DNA of 37,929 nucleotides from IMG/VR virus record IMGVR_UViG_3300048034_000615, positions 1 to 37,929 of that record; one strand, written 5' to 3'. The notes under the pieces were generated by a model. It searched no databases. It saw only the letters and a program-made list of their open reading frames with translations, and was not told where the DNA came from. The stretch is from a virus. The first letter of the stretch is position 1; each line of letters begins with the position of its first letter. A program made the position numbers and the translations under genes. Of this stretch, positions 23,979 to 33,157 are shown in pieces.

Positions 23979-26900
23979 ATGGCAAAGAAATTAGTTACCT
24001 ATTACTCATTTGAACCTTCTACAAATACTGTAAAGATTCCGGGTAATATCAAAGCAGAAAAACTTCTGCTGATCACAAATATTACTGAAAATACACCAAT
24101 TTATATTTTCTCGGACCAATTTCTTGGTCTAGAATCTTCAACTTACAATCAAACTACAGAAGAAACTGAGTTTGTTCTGACTTGCAATTGTTCTACAATG
24201 TCCTCTACGGACAAGTTGCAAATTTTCTACGACAAACCATATGTAAGTATTGAACCTTCCGAGACTTTCGTTGACGCTGTTTCAAAGTTTAGAGTTTCAA
24301 ATCCAGAAAACCTGATTGATACTGACTTTGAGTATGGTCCTCAGGCTTCTAAATGGGAAACTCTTCAGACGATTAATAATATTCCGTCTTTCTACTCATC
24401 CTCTTCTGATACTACGATTTCGTTTATCACGAAAGTAGAATCATTTGCTGGTAGTGAATTAATTACTGTTACTACTAGTTTCGACCACGGTCTTACTTCT
24501 GGTCTTCCAATTACAGTAACTGGTCTTTCCTCCACTACTGCAGAAGGTACTTATTTAATCCAGGCAGTACCAACTACTACAACATTTACATTCAAATGTA
24601 GAGCATCACAACCTACTAGTAGAGAACTCCAGGGTACTTACACCTCTATTATTCCTGGTAAATTCTTCCAAGGTTCTCAAATTGCTCTTGATGAATCACA
24701 AGGAATTGTCAGCGAACTTTACAATTTCCGAGTCAAAGTTTATTCTGTCTGGCAATTTACACTTCCTTCAGTTCCTACTGCATGGGAAGTACAAGATTAT
24801 ATTACCATTGATAGCGGTGGTGCGGGTGTAATTTCAAAAATTGATGGAAATGATGTTTGGGTCCACTTCAGTTCTGTTGCTCAGTCTAATCCTCAGGATG
24901 CTGATACACTCACAGCGAAAGATATTGACGTTGTTGTAACAACAGTTGTAGGAGCAAGTAACAAGTATTTCATTAACTCATCTGAAGCTTCAGGAACTGA
25001 ATATAATGATCAACAATATGTTCAGCAAGAAACATTAAATCTTGCTAAAAAAGCGATCTATACTTTTGATGTATCAGATCTATCAATGAACACCCACCCA
25101 TTTGAATTCAGTACAACTGATAATGGTGTTCATGGTTCCGGCGGTGTGGAATATACAACTTTTGTTTATAAGCATGGAACTCAAGGAACTGCTGGTGCTT
25201 ATGTAAGAATTTACTTCGATTATAATACCCCAGATAACTTATATTATTATTGCCAGGCTCACAGTGGAATGGGTGGTGATATAGTCACAGCCATCACCAC
25301 TAACTCCAAAGTGTTCCTGACAACATCTGCAGAACATGGTTTTGCTGATAATACTAATTTCTACTTTGTTAATACAGTTTCACCTAAGATCTTTGATATT
25401 CAAGATGGGTCAGCAACAGCAGCTGATGGTGAGCCGACAATTGCACATGAAGATACATTTACTAATGTTATCGCACCTGATATTACTAAAACAGATCCAT
25501 ATAATATCGAATCTACATATACATTAAGATTTGATGAGGCAGATATTAATTATGGCACCGATAGAATTACCCTTCCCAATCACCAATTTGAGACTGGTTA
25601 TTCAATTCTTTACTATCCAAATCCAGGAGACATTCCTATTGGTGGATTGAGCAGAATGTCTGTTTATTATGTCAAAAAAATTGATGATAATACCATTGAA
25701 TTATATGATTCAATGAGAGTTCAGGCAAGTTATCTGAAGAACCTTAGCGTCGGTGGTACATTTACGCATGGTCAACATAATTTTGGACTGGTATATAATA
25801 TCTACAGAGAGTATAAAGGATATTATGATTGGTATACTTACTTCTACCCATACTATCATAACTTTGGTTCTACATATTCCGGTTATGATCTTAGAAGCAA
25901 TCAATATGGTTTAGGAGGTCAGAACTGGGATAGAACGATCTTCTTCTCTCAAACCAGAACTCATGCTGGTGGTAATAGTGGTAATGATAGATTTAGGTAT
26001 TGCGATACGTGGTTCAGATTCTACGGTACATTCTGGAAAACATATGGTTACAATCATGTAACTCTTCCACTAGGAACATCTGCTCAGTTCCAGGGAACTT
26101 ATGATATGCTGACTGATACTCAGCATAATGGGTATAGTAACAGTAGTTACAGTAATGCATATTGGGTTGGTGCTTATAATGGTAATGGTCCTGCCGGTGT
26201 AGGAAATCCTTACTATTGGACATCTAATTTCTATATTGACTATGTTCAGACTGGAAACTCACCATACATTAGAATGCGTGGTAATAACTGGTTCTTCTGG
26301 TATCACCAAAACGGAAATGGATACTATCTGGATAGAAGATTTGGAGAGTATTATAATGATGGTGGAACCAACATGTATATCATGTTTGGTAAGCAAAATA
26401 CTACCACAAATGATTCAGTATACAAAGAAAATCACCTTGCTGAAACTGGACAGAACTTCACATTAGATACTACTAATGGCGATATTCATTACTTCTATGA
26501 TGGTGCTGCTAATAGAACTCAACTTGGAAATGGGACAACTATTAACGTAGAAAAAATTGATAATAATAGATTCCGTCTGAGAGACACGGGTAATACAGTA
26601 TACAGATTAGCAGCTGTTACAGGTGCTCCTACAATGTCTGCTGTAATTACATCACCATTCAAAAACTCAGTTTTTGTTGCTGAACATCAATTCTCAAACA
26701 ATGAGTATTTAAGATATGATCAAATCGGATCTGCCCCAATTGCAGGACTTACTTCTGGTCAGTCTTACTATGTAAAAGTTGTTGATCAAAATAGATTCCA
26801 ACTAGGAACTACAGTCGGTTTCTCAACTGAAGTTGACTTCACTAATTCAGGAACTGGACTTCAGTCATTTGAAAATACAACCGCTGCTTTCGGTACAACT

Positions 26901-29684
26901 GATGGTTCATATACGACTACTAAGGCAGTTAGTGATACTAAACTTTCTGTGACAATTCCGTTCAAAATTCCTCCTGCATTGAAGGGATTTGATGCTGAGG
27001 CAAATGTCACTCTTGCTAATGATTATATCACAATTAATAATCACTATTTTGCTACTGGAACAAGGGTCATCTATGATGCTCAAGGAGGAACAGTACTTGG
27101 TGGATTGACTGATGGTGCGGATTACTACATCATTGTTATTGATAACAATATCTTCAAACTAGCAACAACTTTGGCAGATGCTGTTGCAGGAAATGAAATT
27201 ACCCTTTCAACTAAACCCGGATCTAGTGAAACACAACAATTCATTAGTGCTAGTATGTCAGGTCAGGTTTCTGGCACTGGTACAGTAGAAGTTACATCTG
27301 GTAGCAGACTTGTTACTGGATCAAATGCTGCATTCCAGAGATTCTATAAGATTGGTGATAAACTGAGAATTGTTAATAATGCAACTACACCTGGTGTAAT
27401 TGTTGAGAAGACAATTACAGCAATTACTGATGATGATAATTTGTTGGTTGATACAGCATATGACTTCAGCAACAGTGGTTTAAATTATCTAATTCCTTCT
27501 TACATCTATGTAAGACCTGATGGTTTCTATCTCCACAGACCATTTGACGGTGGCATGGAAATTGGTACTTCTAAGTCACCTAACTCTAGAATTTCTAGAC
27601 AGACTCGTAAGTATTTCCGTTATCAGTCAGGTAAAGGTATTCAGACTTCATTCGCTATTAACTTCATTCCTCAGGTTCCTGTTCAAACAATTTCGTATAC
27701 TCCAATTGGAACTACTACGATAGTAACAGGTGCTACGATGACACAGGGTTCATCAACATTGACTGTTAGTGATACATCAGGTTTGACAGTAGGACAAATT
27801 GCTACTGGAGAAGCTGGTCTTGGATCCAAGTCTAGAATTGTTCAAATCATTGATGCTACGACATTGGAGATGAGCACAGGTTGCACCGGAGCTTTCACTG
27901 GAGGCACAATTACATTCGCTAAAGTCGAACTTGCGACTATCGTCTGCACAAAACCACACCAGTTTGAAGATGATGTTCAAGTTACAGTCAAAGATTGTAG
28001 TGTTGAAGGATTTAATGTTACTGCAGATATCTACGATCTTGTAAATGATTTCTCATTCAGATATATTCTCCCAGCACAACCCACATCTGATGTTGGTGGT
28101 GGATTCACTACCGTATCTATTGTTGCCTGGAGTGACTGTTCAATCCGTGCTGGTATGTTTGATGATCAGAATGGTTTCTACTTTGAATATGATGGTGCAA
28201 CACTTAACTGTGTCAGAAGATCTTCTGTCCAACAACTTCCTGGAACTATCGCTGTAACAAACTCCAGTCAAATTGTTACTGGAACTAATACATCGTTTAT
28301 CTCTCAAGTTGCCGTTGGTGAGCATCTCGTTATTCGCGGAATGACATATCAAGTTGTTAAGATTGCTAGCAATAGTCAACTTACAATCCAACCTTCTTAT
28401 CGTGGTGTTACTGCAACTGACGTTATTTGCACCAAAACTATTAATACTGCAGTAGCGAAAGAAAATTGGAATATTGATAAAGCAGATGGTAATGGTCCAT
28501 CTGGTTACATCCTGAACCTTGATAGAATTCAGATGTGCTATATGGATTACTCTTGGTATGGTGCTGGTAAGATCCGTTTCGGATTTAAAGATCAAGATGG
28601 ACATGTTAAGTATGTCCATGAATTTAAGCACAACAACCGTTTGACGGAATCTTACTTCCGTTCTGGTAACCTACCTGCTCGTTATGAAGTAGTTAACTTC
28701 ACTTCACCGACATATGTCGGAACCTTGTTCCACTGGGGTACTTCAGTTATCATGGATGGTACAATGCAAGATGACGAAGCATATCTCTTCACAGCATCAG
28801 GCAACGTCCAGAAGTATACAAATGCTACTGCCGAAAGTTCTAGCACCAACGCCAATAGTTTCCTGAGATCCTATTACCAAGGCACATGGTGGAACAGAAC
28901 GTTCTATCTCATCATGCGTTTCCCATCTAGTGAAGCATCCAAGTTCTCAATTAACACATTGATTTATGAGAACACTGCTGCCAATGGTTACTTCTTAGAA
29001 GGTAGACCAATTGACTCCAAGTCTCGTGTCTCAGGTAGTTACTATGAAGCTGCAATTCAATATGTAGAAGGAACTGCAACTGTATTCCCATACAACTATA
29101 CCAGTGCGATTAATTCTGCCATTGGAAATCCTGCTGTTCCTTCAGGAACAACAATGAATATCGGTGCCCCTGCTGGTGTTGATAACATTATTCCTGATAA
29201 CATCCCACTGATTTCCATCAGACTGGCACCTTCAGTTGACTCTTCAATTACTGGTGCTCTCGGAGAACGTGAAATTATCAACAGAATGCAACTTAAACTT
29301 GACTCTGTTGGTATTCTAACTACACATGAGACGGAACTATCACTGATCTTGAACCCACAACTTTCAACAGATGAGTTCCAGAATGTTGACGAACCTTCGC
29401 TCTGTCAACTCGTTAAGCATGGTCCTAACGATGTTATCACAGGCGGTTCTAAGATTCTCTCATTCAGAGCATCTGGTTCTGGAGATGGTAATACATTCTC
29501 AACAGAATACGATCTTACGAAACTGAGTGACTTGGGTAACTCAATTCTTGGTGGTGATGGTGTCTATCCAAACGGACCTGACCTACTTTGCGTTGTTGCT
29601 AACATTGTTGACTCAACAGGTGTTAGCGTTGCAAACCCATACTCAGTATCTGCTAGAGTTACCTGGCAGGAATCACAAGCATAA
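23979..29684 (+). CDS. Giant virion structural protein with cupredoxin-like and aromatic-rich segments (1,901 residues)
   Basis: A very long beta protein starting MAKKLVTYYSFEPSTNTVKI. Several 'H-x-x' modules recur: DHGLTSG (24484), EHGFADN (25336), NHQFETG (25578), EHQFSNN (26688), NHYFATG (27041) and PHQFEDD (27957); several continue with a YYVK/YYII strand and end NxFxL. Residues about 355-440 form a cupredoxin-like segment with His373, Cys425, His428 and Met431. Residues about 605-808 are extremely rich in Tyr, Trp, Phe, Asn and Gly. The C-terminal 450 residues look like a conserved globular or lectin-like region (WWNRTFYLIMRFPSSEASKF). It lies among structural genes with no clear late promoter directly upstream; AAGGAAA precedes the ATG. 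Probable fibre or tail surface protein; this is inference. Confidence 0.82.
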   Translation: MAKKLVTYYSFEPSTNTVKIPGNIKAEKLLLITNITENTPIYIFSDQFLGLESSTYNQTTEETEFVLTCNCSTMSSTDKLQIFYDKPYVSIEPSETFVDAVSKFRVSNPENLIDTDFEYGPQASKWETLQTINNIPSFYSSSSDTTISFITKVESFAGSELITVTTSFDHGLTSGLPITVTGLSSTTAEGTYLIQAVPTTTTFTFKCRASQPTSRELQGTYTSIIPGKFFQGSQIALDESQGIVSELYNFRVKVYSVWQFTLPSVPTAWEVQDYITIDSGGAGVISKIDGNDVWVHFSSVAQSNPQDADTLTAKDIDVVVTTVVGASNKYFINSSEASGTEYNDQQYVQQETLNLAKKAIYTFDVSDLSMNTHPFEFSTTDNGVHGSGGVEYTTFVYKHGTQGTAGAYVRIYFDYNTPDNLYYYCQAHSGMGGDIVTAITTNSKVFLTTSAEHGFADNTNFYFVNTVSPKIFDIQDGSATAADGEPTIAHEDTFTNVIAPDITKTDPYNIESTYTLRFDEADINYGTDRITLPNHQFETGYSILYYPNPGDIPIGGLSRMSVYYVKKIDDNTIELYDSMRVQASYLKNLSVGGTFTHGQHNFGLVYNIYREYKGYYDWYTYFYPYYHNFGSTYSGYDLRSNQYGLGGQNWDRTIFFSQTRTHAGGNSGNDRFRYCDTWFRFYGTFWKTYGYNHVTLPLGTSAQFQGTYDMLTDTQHNGYSNSSYSNAYWVGAYNGNGPAGVGNPYYWTSNFYIDYVQTGNSPYIRMRGNNWFFWYHQNGNGYYLDRRFGEYYNDGGTNMYIMFGKQNTTTNDSVYKENHLAETGQNFTLDTTNGDIHYFYDGAANRTQLGNGTTINVEKIDNNRFRLRDTGNTVYRLAAVTGAPTMSAVITSPFKNSVFVAEHQFSNNEYLRYDQIGSAPIAGLTSGQSYYVKVVDQNRFQLGTTVGFSTEVDFTNSGTGLQSFENTTAAFGTTDGSYTTTKAVSDTKLSVTIPFKIPPALKGFDAEANVTLANDYITINNHYFATGTRVIYDAQGGTVLGGLTDGADYYIIVIDNNIFKLATTLADAVAGNEITLSTKPGSSETQQFISASMSGQVSGTGTVEVTSGSRLVTGSNAAFQRFYKIGDKLRIVNNATTPGVIVEKTITAITDDDNLLVDTAYDFSNSGLNYLIPSYIYVRPDGFYLHRPFDGGMEIGTSKSPNSRISRQTRKYFRYQSGKGIQTSFAINFIPQVPVQTISYTPIGTTTIVTGATMTQGSSTLTVSDTSGLTVGQIATGEAGLGSKSRIVQIIDATTLEMSTGCTGAFTGGTITFAKVELATIVCTKPHQFEDDVQVTVKDCSVEGFNVTADIYDLVNDFSFRYILPAQPTSDVGGGFTTVSIVAWSDCSIRAGMFDDQNGFYFEYDGATLNCVRRSSVQQLPGTIAVTNSSQIVTGTNTSFISQVAVGEHLVIRGMTYQVVKIASNSQLTIQPSYRGVTATDVICTKTINTAVAKENWNIDKADGNGPSGYILNLDRIQMCYMDYSWYGAGKIRFGFKDQDGHVKYVHEFKHNNRLTESYFRSGNLPARYEVVNFTSPTYVGTLFHWGTSVIMDGTMQDDEAYLFTASGNVQKYTNATAESSSTNANSFLRSYYQGTWWNRTFYLIMRFPSSEASKFSINTLIYENTAANGYFLEGRPIDSKSRVSGSYYEAAIQYVEGTATVFPYNYTSAINSAIGNPAVPSGTTMNIGAPAGVDNIIPDNIPLISIRLAPSVDSSITGALGEREIINRMQLKLDSVGILTTHETELSLILNPQLSTDEFQNVDEPSLCQLVKHGPNDVITGGSKILSFRASGSGDGNTFSTEYDLTKLSDLGNSILGGDGVYPNGPDLLCVVANIVDSTGVSVANPYSVSARVTWQESQA

Positions 29685-29702
29685 TTTTAGGAGAAATCTA
29701 AC

Positions 29703-29972
29703 ATGCCACAAAACGAAATCGATGTGCCTCTAAATGAGGCACCAGAGTCTGCGACACTTGCTGCTTATGAAACAGCCGTTCAAGCAATTGATTGGTCATA
29801 CGCTGATGGTGATGAAGCAGCATTACAATCTTTCTATGCTGCTAAAGTATTGGAAAATGGATTAAGACAGCAATTTGGTGGGTCAAAACCATCTGATTTA
29901 AATAAACCGGGTATGGAATCAATTATCAATATCTGGAATAAGTATGCTCCGGCATCAGAACGACTAATTTAA
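29703..29972 (+). CDS. Small hypothetical protein at the end of the plus-strand block
   Basis: An 89-residue, mostly helical, soluble protein (SATLAAYETAVQAIDWSYAD, then EAALQSFYAAKVLENGLRQQ and a GMESIINIWNKYAPA end). An AGGAG nine bases before the ATG is a good ribosome binding site. It follows the 1,901-residue gene by 18 bases, so it is probably cotranscribed with it, and is followed by a bidirectional terminator. I do not recognise the family. A chaperone or connector for the giant protein is possible from position only. Confidence 0.75.
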   Translation: MPQNEIDVPLNEAPESATLAAYETAVQAIDWSYADGDEAALQSFYAAKVLENGLRQQFGGSKPSDLNKPGMESIINIWNKYAPASERLI

Positions 29973-29996
29973 GTTTACAAAATAAACAAAAAAAAT

Positions 29997-30019
29997 GGAG
30001 GGTAACCCCTCCTTTTTTT
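29997..30019. terminator. Bidirectional terminator between convergent genes
   Basis: GGAGGG (29997-30002) pairs with CCCTCC (30007-30012) around a TAAC loop, with seven T after it and an A-run (about 29988-29995) before it. It can therefore end both the plus-strand block and the minus-strand cluster. Its T-run touches the stop codon of the minus-strand gene. Confidence 0.9.
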
Positions 30020-30797
30020 ATGAAATTGCGCCAACTAAAGAATATCTAATAGATTTATATTCATCAACATCATACCCTATACTGTGATAGAAATCTCCTT
30101 TGTATATGGTAAGTGAATTAAAATCAGCTGATATGGAATGATACCTTTCATATTGATCATCTGATTTAAATCTAATCCATTTACCAATTTTTTTATCATC
30201 CATCAAAGTATCTTTACGAGAATTATCTTCTTCAAATTCCTCAGAATATTTGAACATACGAGATCCTCTATAGTTATAAGAATTATTTTTAAGTTTATAT
30301 CTAAAAAAATCTGTGTAACTTTCTTCGTTCTCGGTTAGAAATAAATTTAAAGCGAGTGAAAATGGATCTGTATGGGGACGATAGTTTGAGCAATATGAGG
30401 GCATTCCGGGATAGCAACAATTAGTATAATAATTCCAATTAATTCTTTTATATTCATACTTTACTATATGATAGTGTTTAAGAATATTATAAAATGCTAT
30501 TGATATATTATTTCTAAAAAATGTTTCTGGAACTGGTGCTTGAAATCCCGGAGCCATACTACTACTATTGCTAGATTTAGTAGTTCCATCGATTATAGAT
30601 TTAGATTTATCTTCGGAAGGAAAATGAGATATAAAATTTCTCAAATCTATAGGATTTTTTAGGAAATTATGAACTTTAATATATTCAAGTTCTTCTACTT
30701 TAAAAGCTTGAATGTCCATATCAGAATTTACTTCTGTTAATTCCTTAATTTCACCAGCACTATACCTAGGTATAACGTCATAATTAAAATCATTCAT
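30018..30797 (-). CDS. 2OG-Fe(II) dioxygenase-like protein (intact metal site)
   Basis: A 259-residue protein from the ATG at 30797 (an upstream ATG at 30824 would add nine residues). The facial triad of a 2-oxoglutarate/Fe(II) oxygenase is visible: His and Asp in RPHTDPFSLALNLFL (His codon 30372-30374, Asp 30366-30368), the distal His in IYKGDFYHSIGY (30084-30086), and Arg in IRYSLVGAIS (30045-30047) to bind 2OG. The N-terminal YIKVHNFLKNPIDLRNFI resembles the start of DUF6445-type proteins. The substrate is unknown. It is the last gene of a three-gene minus-strand cluster and overlaps its upstream neighbour by 8 bases. That neighbour is a divergent paralogue. I preferred the inner start because it reduces the overlap; a weak GGA lies 11 bases upstream. 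Confidence 0.75.
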   Translation of the reverse strand: MNDFNYDVIPRYSAGEIKELTEVNSDMDIQAFKVEELEYIKVHNFLKNPIDLRNFISHFPSEDKSKSIIDGTTKSSNSSSMAPGFQAPVPETFFRNNISIAFYNILKHYHIVKYEYKRINWNYYTNCCYPGMPSYCSNYRPHTDPFSLALNLFLTENEESYTDFFRYKLKNNSYNYRGSRMFKYSEEFEEDNSRKDTLMDDKKIGKWIRFKSDDQYERYHSISADFNSLTIYKGDFYHSIGYDVDEYKSIRYSLVGAIS

Positions 30798-31692
30798 TTG
30801 AAATATATTCCATTGGCATTTCATTAGACATTTGATCGCCCATTACATTTCCAAAACCATCCTCTTCTTTAGCAGGAAGATTTAAACATCCTTCAAGATG
30901 ATAGTGCTCAGAAACATTATCGTAAACATTCTGATACCAAGAGTTGCCTGGATAAAGAATTGCTCTATTGTATTTTGCTGGCACATGAATAAGTTTATTA
31001 AAATATTCATCACCATCCCAATTTTCATATTGTTTAGTGGTATTTTGAGGTACATACTTATAATTAAGTAAATCCATAATCTCTCGTTTAGATTCAGGAT
31101 CCGTAATACCTTCAAATAACTGAGTTACACCATAATAAATTTTATGTTCATAAGCAAAATTATAGAATGACATACCACTTTTTCCAAGTGCTTCATCTTC
31201 AGAACCTAAAAATATTTTCATATTCATATAAAAATTTCCAGGATGACACTTTTCTTTATTAGTATTAATTGTCATATTAGGATAATAATAATTTCCAGTC
31301 CAAAGACAACTACTAATCATCCTTTCAAATTCTTCTGGAGTTGTTTGACTATTACTATCATTTGGAATATAATCCCATTCCTTTAGAACGCCAACGGCAT
31401 TCATTGTTAATTGCTGAGTAATATTTGGATGAAATAATTGGTTCTCACCCATAGGTTTTTGAAATTGATATTTGTTATCACTTTCTCTTCTAGATTCTTC
31501 TTCTAAAGTTTTTTGTCCAGTATCGAAAGGAACAGATAACAAATTATCTAAACTATTACCAGGATCTTTAAAAAAATTATCAATTACCAAACAACTAAAT
31601 TCAGATACTCTTTTTTCCTGAACCATAGCATCATCGGACATTTCAAATCCGAAGTTATTAATATATTTAATTTTTGATTGAATATCTTTCAT
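30790..31692 (-). CDS. Degenerate 2OG-Fe(II) dioxygenase-like paralogue
   Basis: A 300-residue protein from ATG 31692, with GGTGGAG eight bases upstream; a TTG at 31698 is also in frame. It aligns by eye with the downstream dioxygenase: VIDNFFKDPGNSLDNLL with VHNFLKNPIDLRNFI, HPGNFYMNMKIFL with HTDPFSLALNLFL, and LYPGNSWYQNVYD with IYKGDFYHSIGYD. At the metal site the Asp is Gly (HPG instead of HTD) and the distal His is Tyr, so ordinary Fe(II) binding looks lost. HxG is also the arrangement in 2OG halogenases, but those keep the distal His, so a pseudoenzyme is more likely. The fold resembles DUF6445. It starts two bases after the stop of the first cluster gene. Confidence 0.75.
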   Translation of the reverse strand: MKDIQSKIKYINNFGFEMSDDAMVQEKRVSEFSCLVIDNFFKDPGNSLDNLLSVPFDTGQKTLEEESRRESDNKYQFQKPMGENQLFHPNITQQLTMNAVGVLKEWDYIPNDSNSQTTPEEFERMISSCLWTGNYYYPNMTINTNKEKCHPGNFYMNMKIFLGSEDEALGKSGMSFYNFAYEHKIYYGVTQLFEGITDPESKREIMDLLNYKYVPQNTTKQYENWDGDEYFNKLIHVPAKYNRAILYPGNSWYQNVYDNVSEHYHLEGCLNLPAKEEDGFGNVMGDQMSNEMPMEYISNE

Positions 31693-31694
31693 AA

Positions 31695-32144
31695 TCAACG
31701 CTCCACCGTAGGTGTTCCTCTAGCAGCATCGCTCCAAATTTCATTTTGGTTTCCTCCAATTTCATCAGAATGAACTAAAAATGAATTATCAAGTTCAATA
31801 GTTTTAACATATTCCTGAACCCATTTGCTCAGAATAGACATATATGCATTAGTTACATCAGTATGAGGTTCGTAAATGACATCAATAAAATCGTGCGTAA
31901 CATTAAAACTTCTTTCATTTGATAATGGAAATAGTCTACCGAATTGAAGTTCACCTTGTTGAGCAGGAAGTTCTGTAACATTCATATCCTCATCAATATT
32001 AGACAAAACATTATTGACACATTCAACAGTAAATGGATCCGAAATGATATAACCTAAACTTTTATTTTCTTCTTTATCCAAGGCTTCTTTAACATCACAA
32101 ACAATTGTTGTTTGATTTTTGAGTAGGCAAAGTTTAACTGTCAT
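31695..32144 (-). CDS. Conserved phage protein of unknown function, first gene of the minus-strand cluster
   Basis: A 149-residue protein. The N-terminus (VKLCLLKNQTTIVCDVKEAL, then SLGYIISDPFTVECVN) and the middle (FGRLFPLSNERSFNVTHDFI, then VIYEPHTDVTNAYM) match a recurring small-protein type in T4-like cyanophages and related marine phages, recognised by its LLK...VKEA...LGY...P strand pattern, which looks Sm-like. I know of no assigned function. The C-terminal 25 residues (VHSDEIGGNQNEIWSDAARG...) seem disordered. It is the first gene after the minus-strand sigma70-type promoter, with a very short leader and no clear Shine-Dalgarno. The next gene follows after two bases. Confidence 0.78.
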   Translation of the reverse strand: MTVKLCLLKNQTTIVCDVKEALDKEENKSLGYIISDPFTVECVNNVLSNIDEDMNVTELPAQQGELQFGRLFPLSNERSFNVTHDFIDVIYEPHTDVTNAYMSILSKWVQEYVKTIELDNSFLVHSDEIGGNQNEIWSDAARGTPTVER

Positions 32145-32166
32145 TGGTATTTAAATTTATGGTATA

Positions 32167-32195
32167 ATTATAATACAGAATTTAGTTCACGTCAA
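32167..32195 (-). promoter_or_regulatory. Sigma70-type promoter for the minus-strand cluster
   Basis: On the minus strand, TTGACG (32195-32190), a 17-base spacer and TATAAT (32172-32167): 11 of 12 consensus bases at ideal spacing. It lies 23 bases upstream of the first cluster gene (start 32144), giving a leader of roughly 15 bases. Confidence 0.85.
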
Positions 32196-32221
32196 CCCGC
32201 TAAATAAATTCAGTTCATCAA

Positions 32222-32229
32222 TATTTATA
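32222..32229 (-). promoter_or_regulatory. Possible minus-strand late promoter motif
   Basis: The minus strand reads TATAAATA here, upstream of the sigma70-type promoter of the minus-strand cluster. If active, the cluster would be transcribed both early and late. The motif is short and the region AT-rich, so chance is possible. Confidence 0.4.
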
Positions 32230-32239
32230 ACCTACTAAA

Positions 32240-32560
32240 ATGACTACTGTTTCGGATATCCCCCTATATGAAATCGTTCAGGAAATTGAAAAAGTGCATG
32301 GTTCGGAAAAACATATGGTAATTGAAATTATTACCAATGATGAAGCAACTGAAGATAAACCTCATCCATTAGTTAGAGAGGAAGACATCTACAGACCAGA
32401 TGGATGGCAATTAAATGACGGAATTTGGTTCTGGTGTGAATTTGAAAATCAAGTTGCTGTATTTGATAATGTTACTGCGGTAAAACATTGGTTTATTGAA
32501 GATTGTTATAGAGAAAACAAAGAAGATAATACTGATATCAAAATAAAGCAAGACTTATAA
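32240..32560 (+). CDS. Hypothetical acidic protein diverging from the minus-strand cluster
   Basis: A 106-residue acidic protein. It has an N-terminal helix (DIPLYEIVQEIEKVHGSEKH), a middle with DIYRPDGWQLNDGIWFWCEF that looks like a beta sheet rich in Trp, and a helical KHWFIEDCYRENKED end. No family recognised. Its promoter is not obvious: the shared 95-base gap holds a palindromic TATAATTATA (32163-32172) that offers a -10 box on the plus strand as well, but no good -35 at the right spacing. The stop codon is immediately followed by the ATG of the oxygenase gene, so the two are probably cotranslated. Confidence 0.75.
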   Translation: MTTVSDIPLYEIVQEIEKVHGSEKHMVIEIITNDEATEDKPHPLVREEDIYRPDGWQLNDGIWFWCEFENQVAVFDNVTAVKHWFIEDCYRENKEDNTDIKIKQDL

Positions 32561-33157
32561 ATGAAACTAAATAAATTATTTCCTAAAATTGTTGCTGAGT
32601 TTGATGATGTATGCGTAGATAATATTCCAGCGATGATAAAGGAGGTTGAAGAATTATCATCATATGGCACTATGAGAAATAATACATTGAATGTAGAATC
32701 TTCTCATAGATCTATTCAAACAATTCATAGATTACCCGTATTCAAACTGCTGGCAAAGAAAGCACTTTCAAATTCGGTAAAATTTTTAAATGAATATGGG
32801 TATGCTAATTTTTTAACAGATAACCTCTACATTACTAACATGTGGTTTAATGTTTCTGGAAAGGGAGATTATTTATTTCCTCATACTCATCCAGGATCTT
32901 TATTATCTGGAGCGTATTATCTTGAAACAGATCCATCACATAACATTTATTTCTATGATATGCAAAGAAATCTTATAGAACAACCTAATATGCCTACGGA
33001 TTTAAATACAGATACATATCCTATGCCATGTACTCCAGGAAAGATGTATCTATTTAATTCAGATTTTGTTCATGGAGTCCCCAAACAAGAAGCAGATGCT
33101 AGAAAAATTGTCATTTCATTCAACTTATGTTTTGAAAATTTGAAATCCCTACGTTAA
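32561..33157 (+). CDS. Putative 2OG-Fe(II) oxygenase (2OG-FeII_Oxy_5 type)
   Basis: A 198-residue protein matching the small 2OG-Fe(II) oxygenase group common in cyanophages. Motifs: ITNMWFNVSGKGDYLFPHTH then PGSLLSGAYYLE (His108 and His110, the HxH form usual in this group), GKMYLFNSDFVHGVP (His171), and ARKIVISFNLCFE (Arg181, the 2OG-binding Arg). The N-terminus (LNKLFPKIVAEFDD) is also family-like. Phage members have unknown substrates; protein or nucleic acid modification has been proposed for relatives. It starts directly after the stop of the upstream gene and ends before a hairpin with a late promoter motif, so these two genes form a small unit ahead of the neck operon. It is only distantly similar to the minus-strand pair. 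Confidence 0.85.
   Translation: MKLNKLFPKIVAEFDDVCVDNIPAMIKEVEELSSYGTMRNNTLNVESSHRSIQTIHRLPVFKLLAKKALSNSVKFLNEYGYANFLTDNLYITNMWFNVSGKGDYLFPHTHPGSLLSGAYYLETDPSHNIYFYDMQRNLIEQPNMPTDLNTDTYPMPCTPGKMYLFNSDFVHGVPKQEADARKIVISFNLCFENLKSLR

Follow-up and report, generated by a model that had tools for sequence, protein, structure and literature searches.

The window analyzed here is the whole 37,929-base virus record (G+C 37%), which comes from the structural part of a T4-like marine phage genome and carries baseplate-wedge genes, fibre-type giants and the neck and tail genes gp13–gp16. Between a 1901-residue fibre-type protein (phrog_5838) and gp13, three genes lie on the opposite strand, namely U149 and the two genes that we refer to as A and B (Table 1). 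The A reading frame encodes 300 residues from the ATG at 31692, or 302 if a TTG start is used, and follows the end of U149 after a gap of 2 nt. The B frame encodes 268 residues when read from the ATG at 30824, from which its residues are numbered throughout; alignment of its relatives favours the ATG at 30797, in which case the B start overlaps the A stop by 8 nt. A hairpin closes the operon and could act on both strands. The third 2OG oxygenase of the region, a member of the PF13759/phrog_81 group known from cyanophages, is of the same superfamily as B but of a different, unrelated family; its gene lies 417 nt from U149 in the opposite orientation, and some of the loci that retain A and B lack it.

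Table 1. Positions of the operon, its predicted signals and its neighbours in the window
Feature	Positions	Strand	Remarks
Allelic-exchange island	24690..33154	.	divergent even where the DNA on both sides is 85-95% identical from phage to phage
Fibre-type virion structural protein, phrog_5838	23979..29684	+	exchanged together with the operon from about residue 235 onward
Terminator-like hairpin, T-runs on both strands	29997..30012	.	between B and the fibre-side genes
B, DUF6445-type 2OG-Fe(II) oxygenase	30018..30824	-	intact H151-T-D153, H247, R260; probable true start ATG 30797
A, pseudo-oxygenase paralogue	30790..31692	-	metal/2OG positions occupied by H150-P-G152, Y253, H263
U149, first gene of the operon	31695..32144	-	phrog_431; weak DUF6561 similarity
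Predicted sigma70-type promoter of the operon, TTGACG-N17-TATAAT	32167..32195	-
Late-promoter-like element, TATAAATA	32222..32229	- (operon strand)	motif in PMC2984593
o106, divergent neighbour	32240..32560	+	beside the operon in every locus reaching that far
Separate 2OG-Fe(II) oxygenase, PF13759	32561..33157	+	some relatives lack it

On their sequence, U149, A and B appear to form a translationally coupled operon behind one conserved promoter. In all 23 loci, the -10 element of the best sigma70-type site precedes the U149 ATG by 27–30 nt, as compared with a mean of 0.46 loci (maximum 3) in shuffles, with the qualification that the 23 loci are related and hence not 23 independent cases. A TAAATA core is found farther upstream on the operon strand, again in 23 of 23 loci, and takes the form TATAAATA in the window. 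The cyanophage late promoter is NATAAATA, and the combination of early and late promoters is thought to give middle expression (PMC2984593).

The original prediction was that A and B are paralogous dioxygenases, and both reading frames are indeed found on the minus strand, with a similarity beyond chance in BLASTP (20% identity over 250 residues, E = 4e-6) and in hhalign profile-profile alignment (probability 98.9, E = 4e-17, 229 columns). Both proteins match phrog_1644, and both match PF20043 (DUF6445) just above its gathering score of 24 (24.7 bits for A and 24.6 bits for B); a DUF6445 match at E ≤ 0.01 was obtained for 14 of 14 B members and 4 of 13 A members. More distant searches returned little: in the phage collection, B retrieved only the single-copy Synechococcus phage relatives described below and A retrieved no match by tblastn, an NCBIfam search gave no match, a scan of genome contigs found no cellular homologues of B, and sequence searches for solved homologues yielded none for B and only spurious PUF matches for A. 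AlphaFold2 models of the individual proteins (pLDDT 72.6 and pTM 0.74 for A, pLDDT 78.1 and pTM 0.78 for B) agree with a shared fold, as both are predicted to be DSBH proteins and match 2OG oxygenases in Foldseek. When the PDB matches are ranked by probability, OGFOD1 and Tpa1 come first or close to first (A-OGFOD1, probability 1.00, E 5.8e-4; B-Tpa1, probability 1.00, E 9.7e-4). TM-scores are below 0.5; B is assigned to the DSBH fold although these scores are modest. Searched against viral models, B matches cyanophage proteins.

The two proteins differ at the metal site. The H-T-D motif, distal His and Arg reported for the downstream protein are all present in B (Table 1), and the metal/2OG positions are H, D, H and R in every B homologue that reaches them. 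B thus has the HxD...H facial triad and the basic 2OG-anchoring residue of Fe(II)/2OG oxygenases and is probably an active 2OG hydroxylase. In A, by contrast, H-P-G aligns with the H-T-D of B and Tyr253 with His247 in both BLASTP and hhalign, as had been described for the upstream protein, while the 2OG-anchoring Arg260 of B aligns with His263. A search for an alternative Fe(II) triad in A and its 24 homologues found none. The Asp position is D in 0 of 25 A proteins, being occupied by G, A, V, S, L, R, M or E; the first His is kept in 6 of 25 and the distal His in 3 of 25, never both together, and two ligands are found in no homologue. Whether the substitutions are conserved therefore has a divided answer: the loss itself extends to all 25 A proteins, whereas the exact residues vary (SPA, CPS, QPA, SPV and others elsewhere). 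Because the site is lost throughout the A proteins, H-P-G is simply the version found in the window clade.

To follow the pair across loci, searches were seeded separately with B and with A, and the viral contigs, most of them fragments, came down to 25 different A and 26 different B proteins. It should be noted that these contigs were retrieved via short conserved peptide patterns, so that relatives with divergent motifs, possibly including B without A, could be missed. The A-B pair is carried, always side by side, by uncultured marine T4-like phages: A is directly upstream of B in every contig that extends far enough, and the single exception to the pairing is L028, whose contig begins inside B. 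The distance from the A stop to the B start is -8 to +6 nt where inspected, and the A reading frame is open in every locus. Gene order is likewise constant, with the fibre gene followed by B-A-U149, o106, the PF13759 oxygenase (sometimes missing), gp13, gp14, gp15 and gp16. The combination of an enzyme with a ligand-less paralogue, first noticed in the window, is hence a conserved arrangement and not one degenerate copy. In one of these contigs (G001, 177686 bases; locus L025), two adjacent PF00124 (PsbA/PsbD-type) genes are located at 54389-57099, which identifies this phage, at least, as a cyanophage. U149 always heads the operon, and its relatives in isolated cyanophages are found near hsp20 and DNA polymerase gene 43, which makes U149 of no help as a pointer to the substrate.

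DUF6445 proteins also occur in single copy. Five such proteins, encoded by isolated cyanophages and by a single-cell virus, have H-D-H-R intact, and those of phages S-SSM7, Sf-FS3, S-ShM2 and Syn9 (DUF6445/phrog_1644, the same family) have the H-x-D...H...R positions as in B. The cyanophage proteins are 24–26% identical to B, and no pseudo-paralogue was found next to their genes; in S-SSM7 and Sf-FS3, the gene also adjoins a tail-fibre or S74-peptidase gene, like the operon in the window. In a tree rooted on three of the five single-copy proteins, A (support 100/99) and B (99/95) are sister clades, although the outgroup branches are long and the root is therefore less certain than the two clades. 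Taken together, the sister clades and the intact single-copy outgroups indicate that A and B arose by a single duplication of one ancestral DUF6445 2OG oxygenase, with one loss of the site at the base of A; since the single-copy cyanophage homologues are intact, A is accordingly a derived, maintained pseudoenzyme. The dN/dS ratio within the window clade is 0.19–0.23 for A and 0.19–0.20 for B; in other orthologue pairs it is 0.12 for both A and B in one and 0.4–0.65 in two. These ratios indicate that the closest orthologues of both A and B are under purifying selection.

Comparison with related contigs places the operon in a region of allelic exchange. Between the window and contig G002 (L073-L075), the proteins flanking the region are mostly 80–97% identical (gp13 86%, gp15 93%, baseplate wedge 97%), whereas U149, o106 and the PF13759 oxygenase are 34–38% and the fibre protein 57% identical. 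DNA similarity breaks near position 24,690, at about residue 235 of the fibre protein, and is back at 33,154, the end of the PF13759 gene. The right-hand boundary is nearly identical (~33,155) in the comparisons with L013, L015 and L043, and relative to L015, gp13–gp15 are 95–98% identical against 27% for A and 37% for B. The evolutionary distances of A, B and U149 correlate with one another at r = 0.94–0.95, compared with 0.38–0.52 against the neck genes; for A and B, the r of 0.95 contrasts with 0.39–0.49 against the neck genes. The divergence of A follows that of the fibre gene as well (Spearman 0.75). The co-variation of A and B, together with the island, shows that the two genes are inherited and exchanged jointly, along with most of the fibre-type gene; as U149 is linked as tightly as B, the functional unit may comprise all three proteins.

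By analogy, the OGFOD1/Tpa1 proteins appear to be the best precedent for how A and B might work, without implying membership. OGFOD1 and Tpa1 consist of a catalytic DSBH plus a DSBH without a metal site (the OGFOD1 CTD is metal-less), and the degenerate domain has been proposed to have lost its site by redundancy after duplication and to have a role in substrate or partner binding (PMC4396695). A and B share with these ribosomal prolyl hydroxylases (OGFOD1/Tpa1/Ofd1) the combination of a catalytic and a metal-less DSBH, but the latter are one fused eukaryotic chain with the catalytic domain first, whereas A and B are two phage genes with the pseudoenzyme first, and the sequence relation is not significant. 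Being two genes, in reverse order and in phages, A and B are thus not members of the OGFOD1/Tpa1 subfamily. Paralogous pairs in which a dead member is retained as partner or activator include METTL3-METTL14 and the trypanosome AdoMetDC-prozyme; these have other folds and chemistry, and their physical pairing is proven, whereas that of A and B is proposed.

We consider it reasonably probable that B acts as an Fe(II)/2OG hydroxylase and that A serves it as a non-catalytic partner, the two working as one unit. A dead copy that has been kept beside the live copy since one ancient duplication, and that is swapped jointly with it, suggests a working partner, and the "regulatory or structural heterodimer" of the original prediction would fit genes that always adjoin, are translationally coupled, are exchanged jointly and co-vary. 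In such a scheme, the ancestral DUF6445 2OG oxygenase would have duplicated, with B retaining the full Fe(II)/2OG site and A losing it once. A would then bind B and either stabilize it or present the substrate, as is thought for the degenerate second DSBH of OGFOD1/Tpa1, and B, whose activity we assume from its residues, would hydroxylate a target using Fe(II), O2 and 2OG. Since exchange involves both the unit and the fibre gene, and since distant DUF6445 genes also neighbour fibre genes in the genomes of two cyanophage isolates, the target is most likely allele-specific and could be the phage's own fibre, another virion protein or a host factor met by the fibre; we infer that A and B heterodimerize and act on a substrate connected with the variable fibre module. 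The most specific version of this proposal must be regarded as tentative and as less likely than not: that A and B are a two-gene heteromeric 2OG hydroxylase with a dedicated pseudo-oxygenase subunit, modifying either the fibre-type protein exchanged with them or whatever host structure that fibre recognizes, and belong to the variable host-interaction module of marine T4-like phages. For the many 2OG oxygenases of marine T4-like phages, roles in DNA repair and in modulating the 2OG levels of the host have been put forward (PMC3037559); a strictly conserved live/dead pair exchanged with a fibre-type gene would rather suggest a complex that modifies proteins and is connected with host interaction. 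If this is true, the pair would be a phage two-gene counterpart of the catalytic plus degenerate DSBH arrangement, which the OGFOD1 structural paper calls eukaryote-restricted (PMC4396695).

Some of the data weaken the case for A as a partner of B. U149 co-varies equally well (r 0.94), so the linkage may reflect a shared cassette rather than contact; A follows the fibre gene as closely as it follows B; two orthologue pairs have the higher dN/dS values given above; and the TM-scores to OGFOD1/Tpa1 are low. A might accordingly be an independent ligand-binding or inhibitory protein, a DSBH repurposed to sense or sequester some factor, sharing the operon with B but making no contact with it. A does have invariant residues of its own (D38, G82, Q85, N114, M140, P151, G173, D198, N242, R243 and Y264), and 21 of 25 A proteins have a basic residue (R, K or H) at the position of the 2OG-anchoring Arg, so that an anion pocket may survive; the equally tight linkage of U149 is also in line with this account. 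We nevertheless think it unlikely, given that A is never apart from B in loci extending far enough, that it is the sister paralogue of B and that the A-B co-variation persists once the gp13 signal is removed (partial Mantel 0.70, p = 0.001).

Little credence can be given to A and B being virion components in which the metal site of B is structural or vestigial. The genes are located among virion genes, a late-promoter-like element is present, and phrog_1644 is labelled "minor coat protein", a label repeated in RefSeq records. However, B retains all its catalytic residues despite high divergence, the fold is that of the same DSBH enzymes, and the operon points away from the virion genes and has a sigma70-type (host-type) promoter. 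The PHROG label is itself unsupported: a literature search on DUF6445, the "minor coat protein" label and 2OG pseudoenzymes turned up nothing relevant and nothing behind the label. On DUF6445 proteins with an intact 2OG site (NC_015287, NC_015281, NC_008296), it looks like a misannotation carried into RefSeq.

That A is a decaying, functionless duplicate is scarcely credible: it evolves faster than B (mean distance 0.68 versus 0.57), but its frame is open everywhere, its dN/dS is ~0.2 among close orthologues, it has invariant positions and it keeps the same location across the whole clade. It is also most improbable that A is catalytically active through a non-canonical site such as a halogenase-like HxG center, a reading disfavoured from the start, for although the window clade has H-x-G as 2OG halogenases do, the distal His that those enzymes retain is Tyr here and missing in 22 of 25 A proteins, 19 of 25 lack the first His, and the three positions vary freely between clades.

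A second questionable name was encountered among related proteins. Those called "DNA endonuclease V" (Q58MQ0 from Prochlorococcus phage P-SSM2; phrog_274) match these DSBH oxygenases in both fold and profile, and the name is probably wrong.
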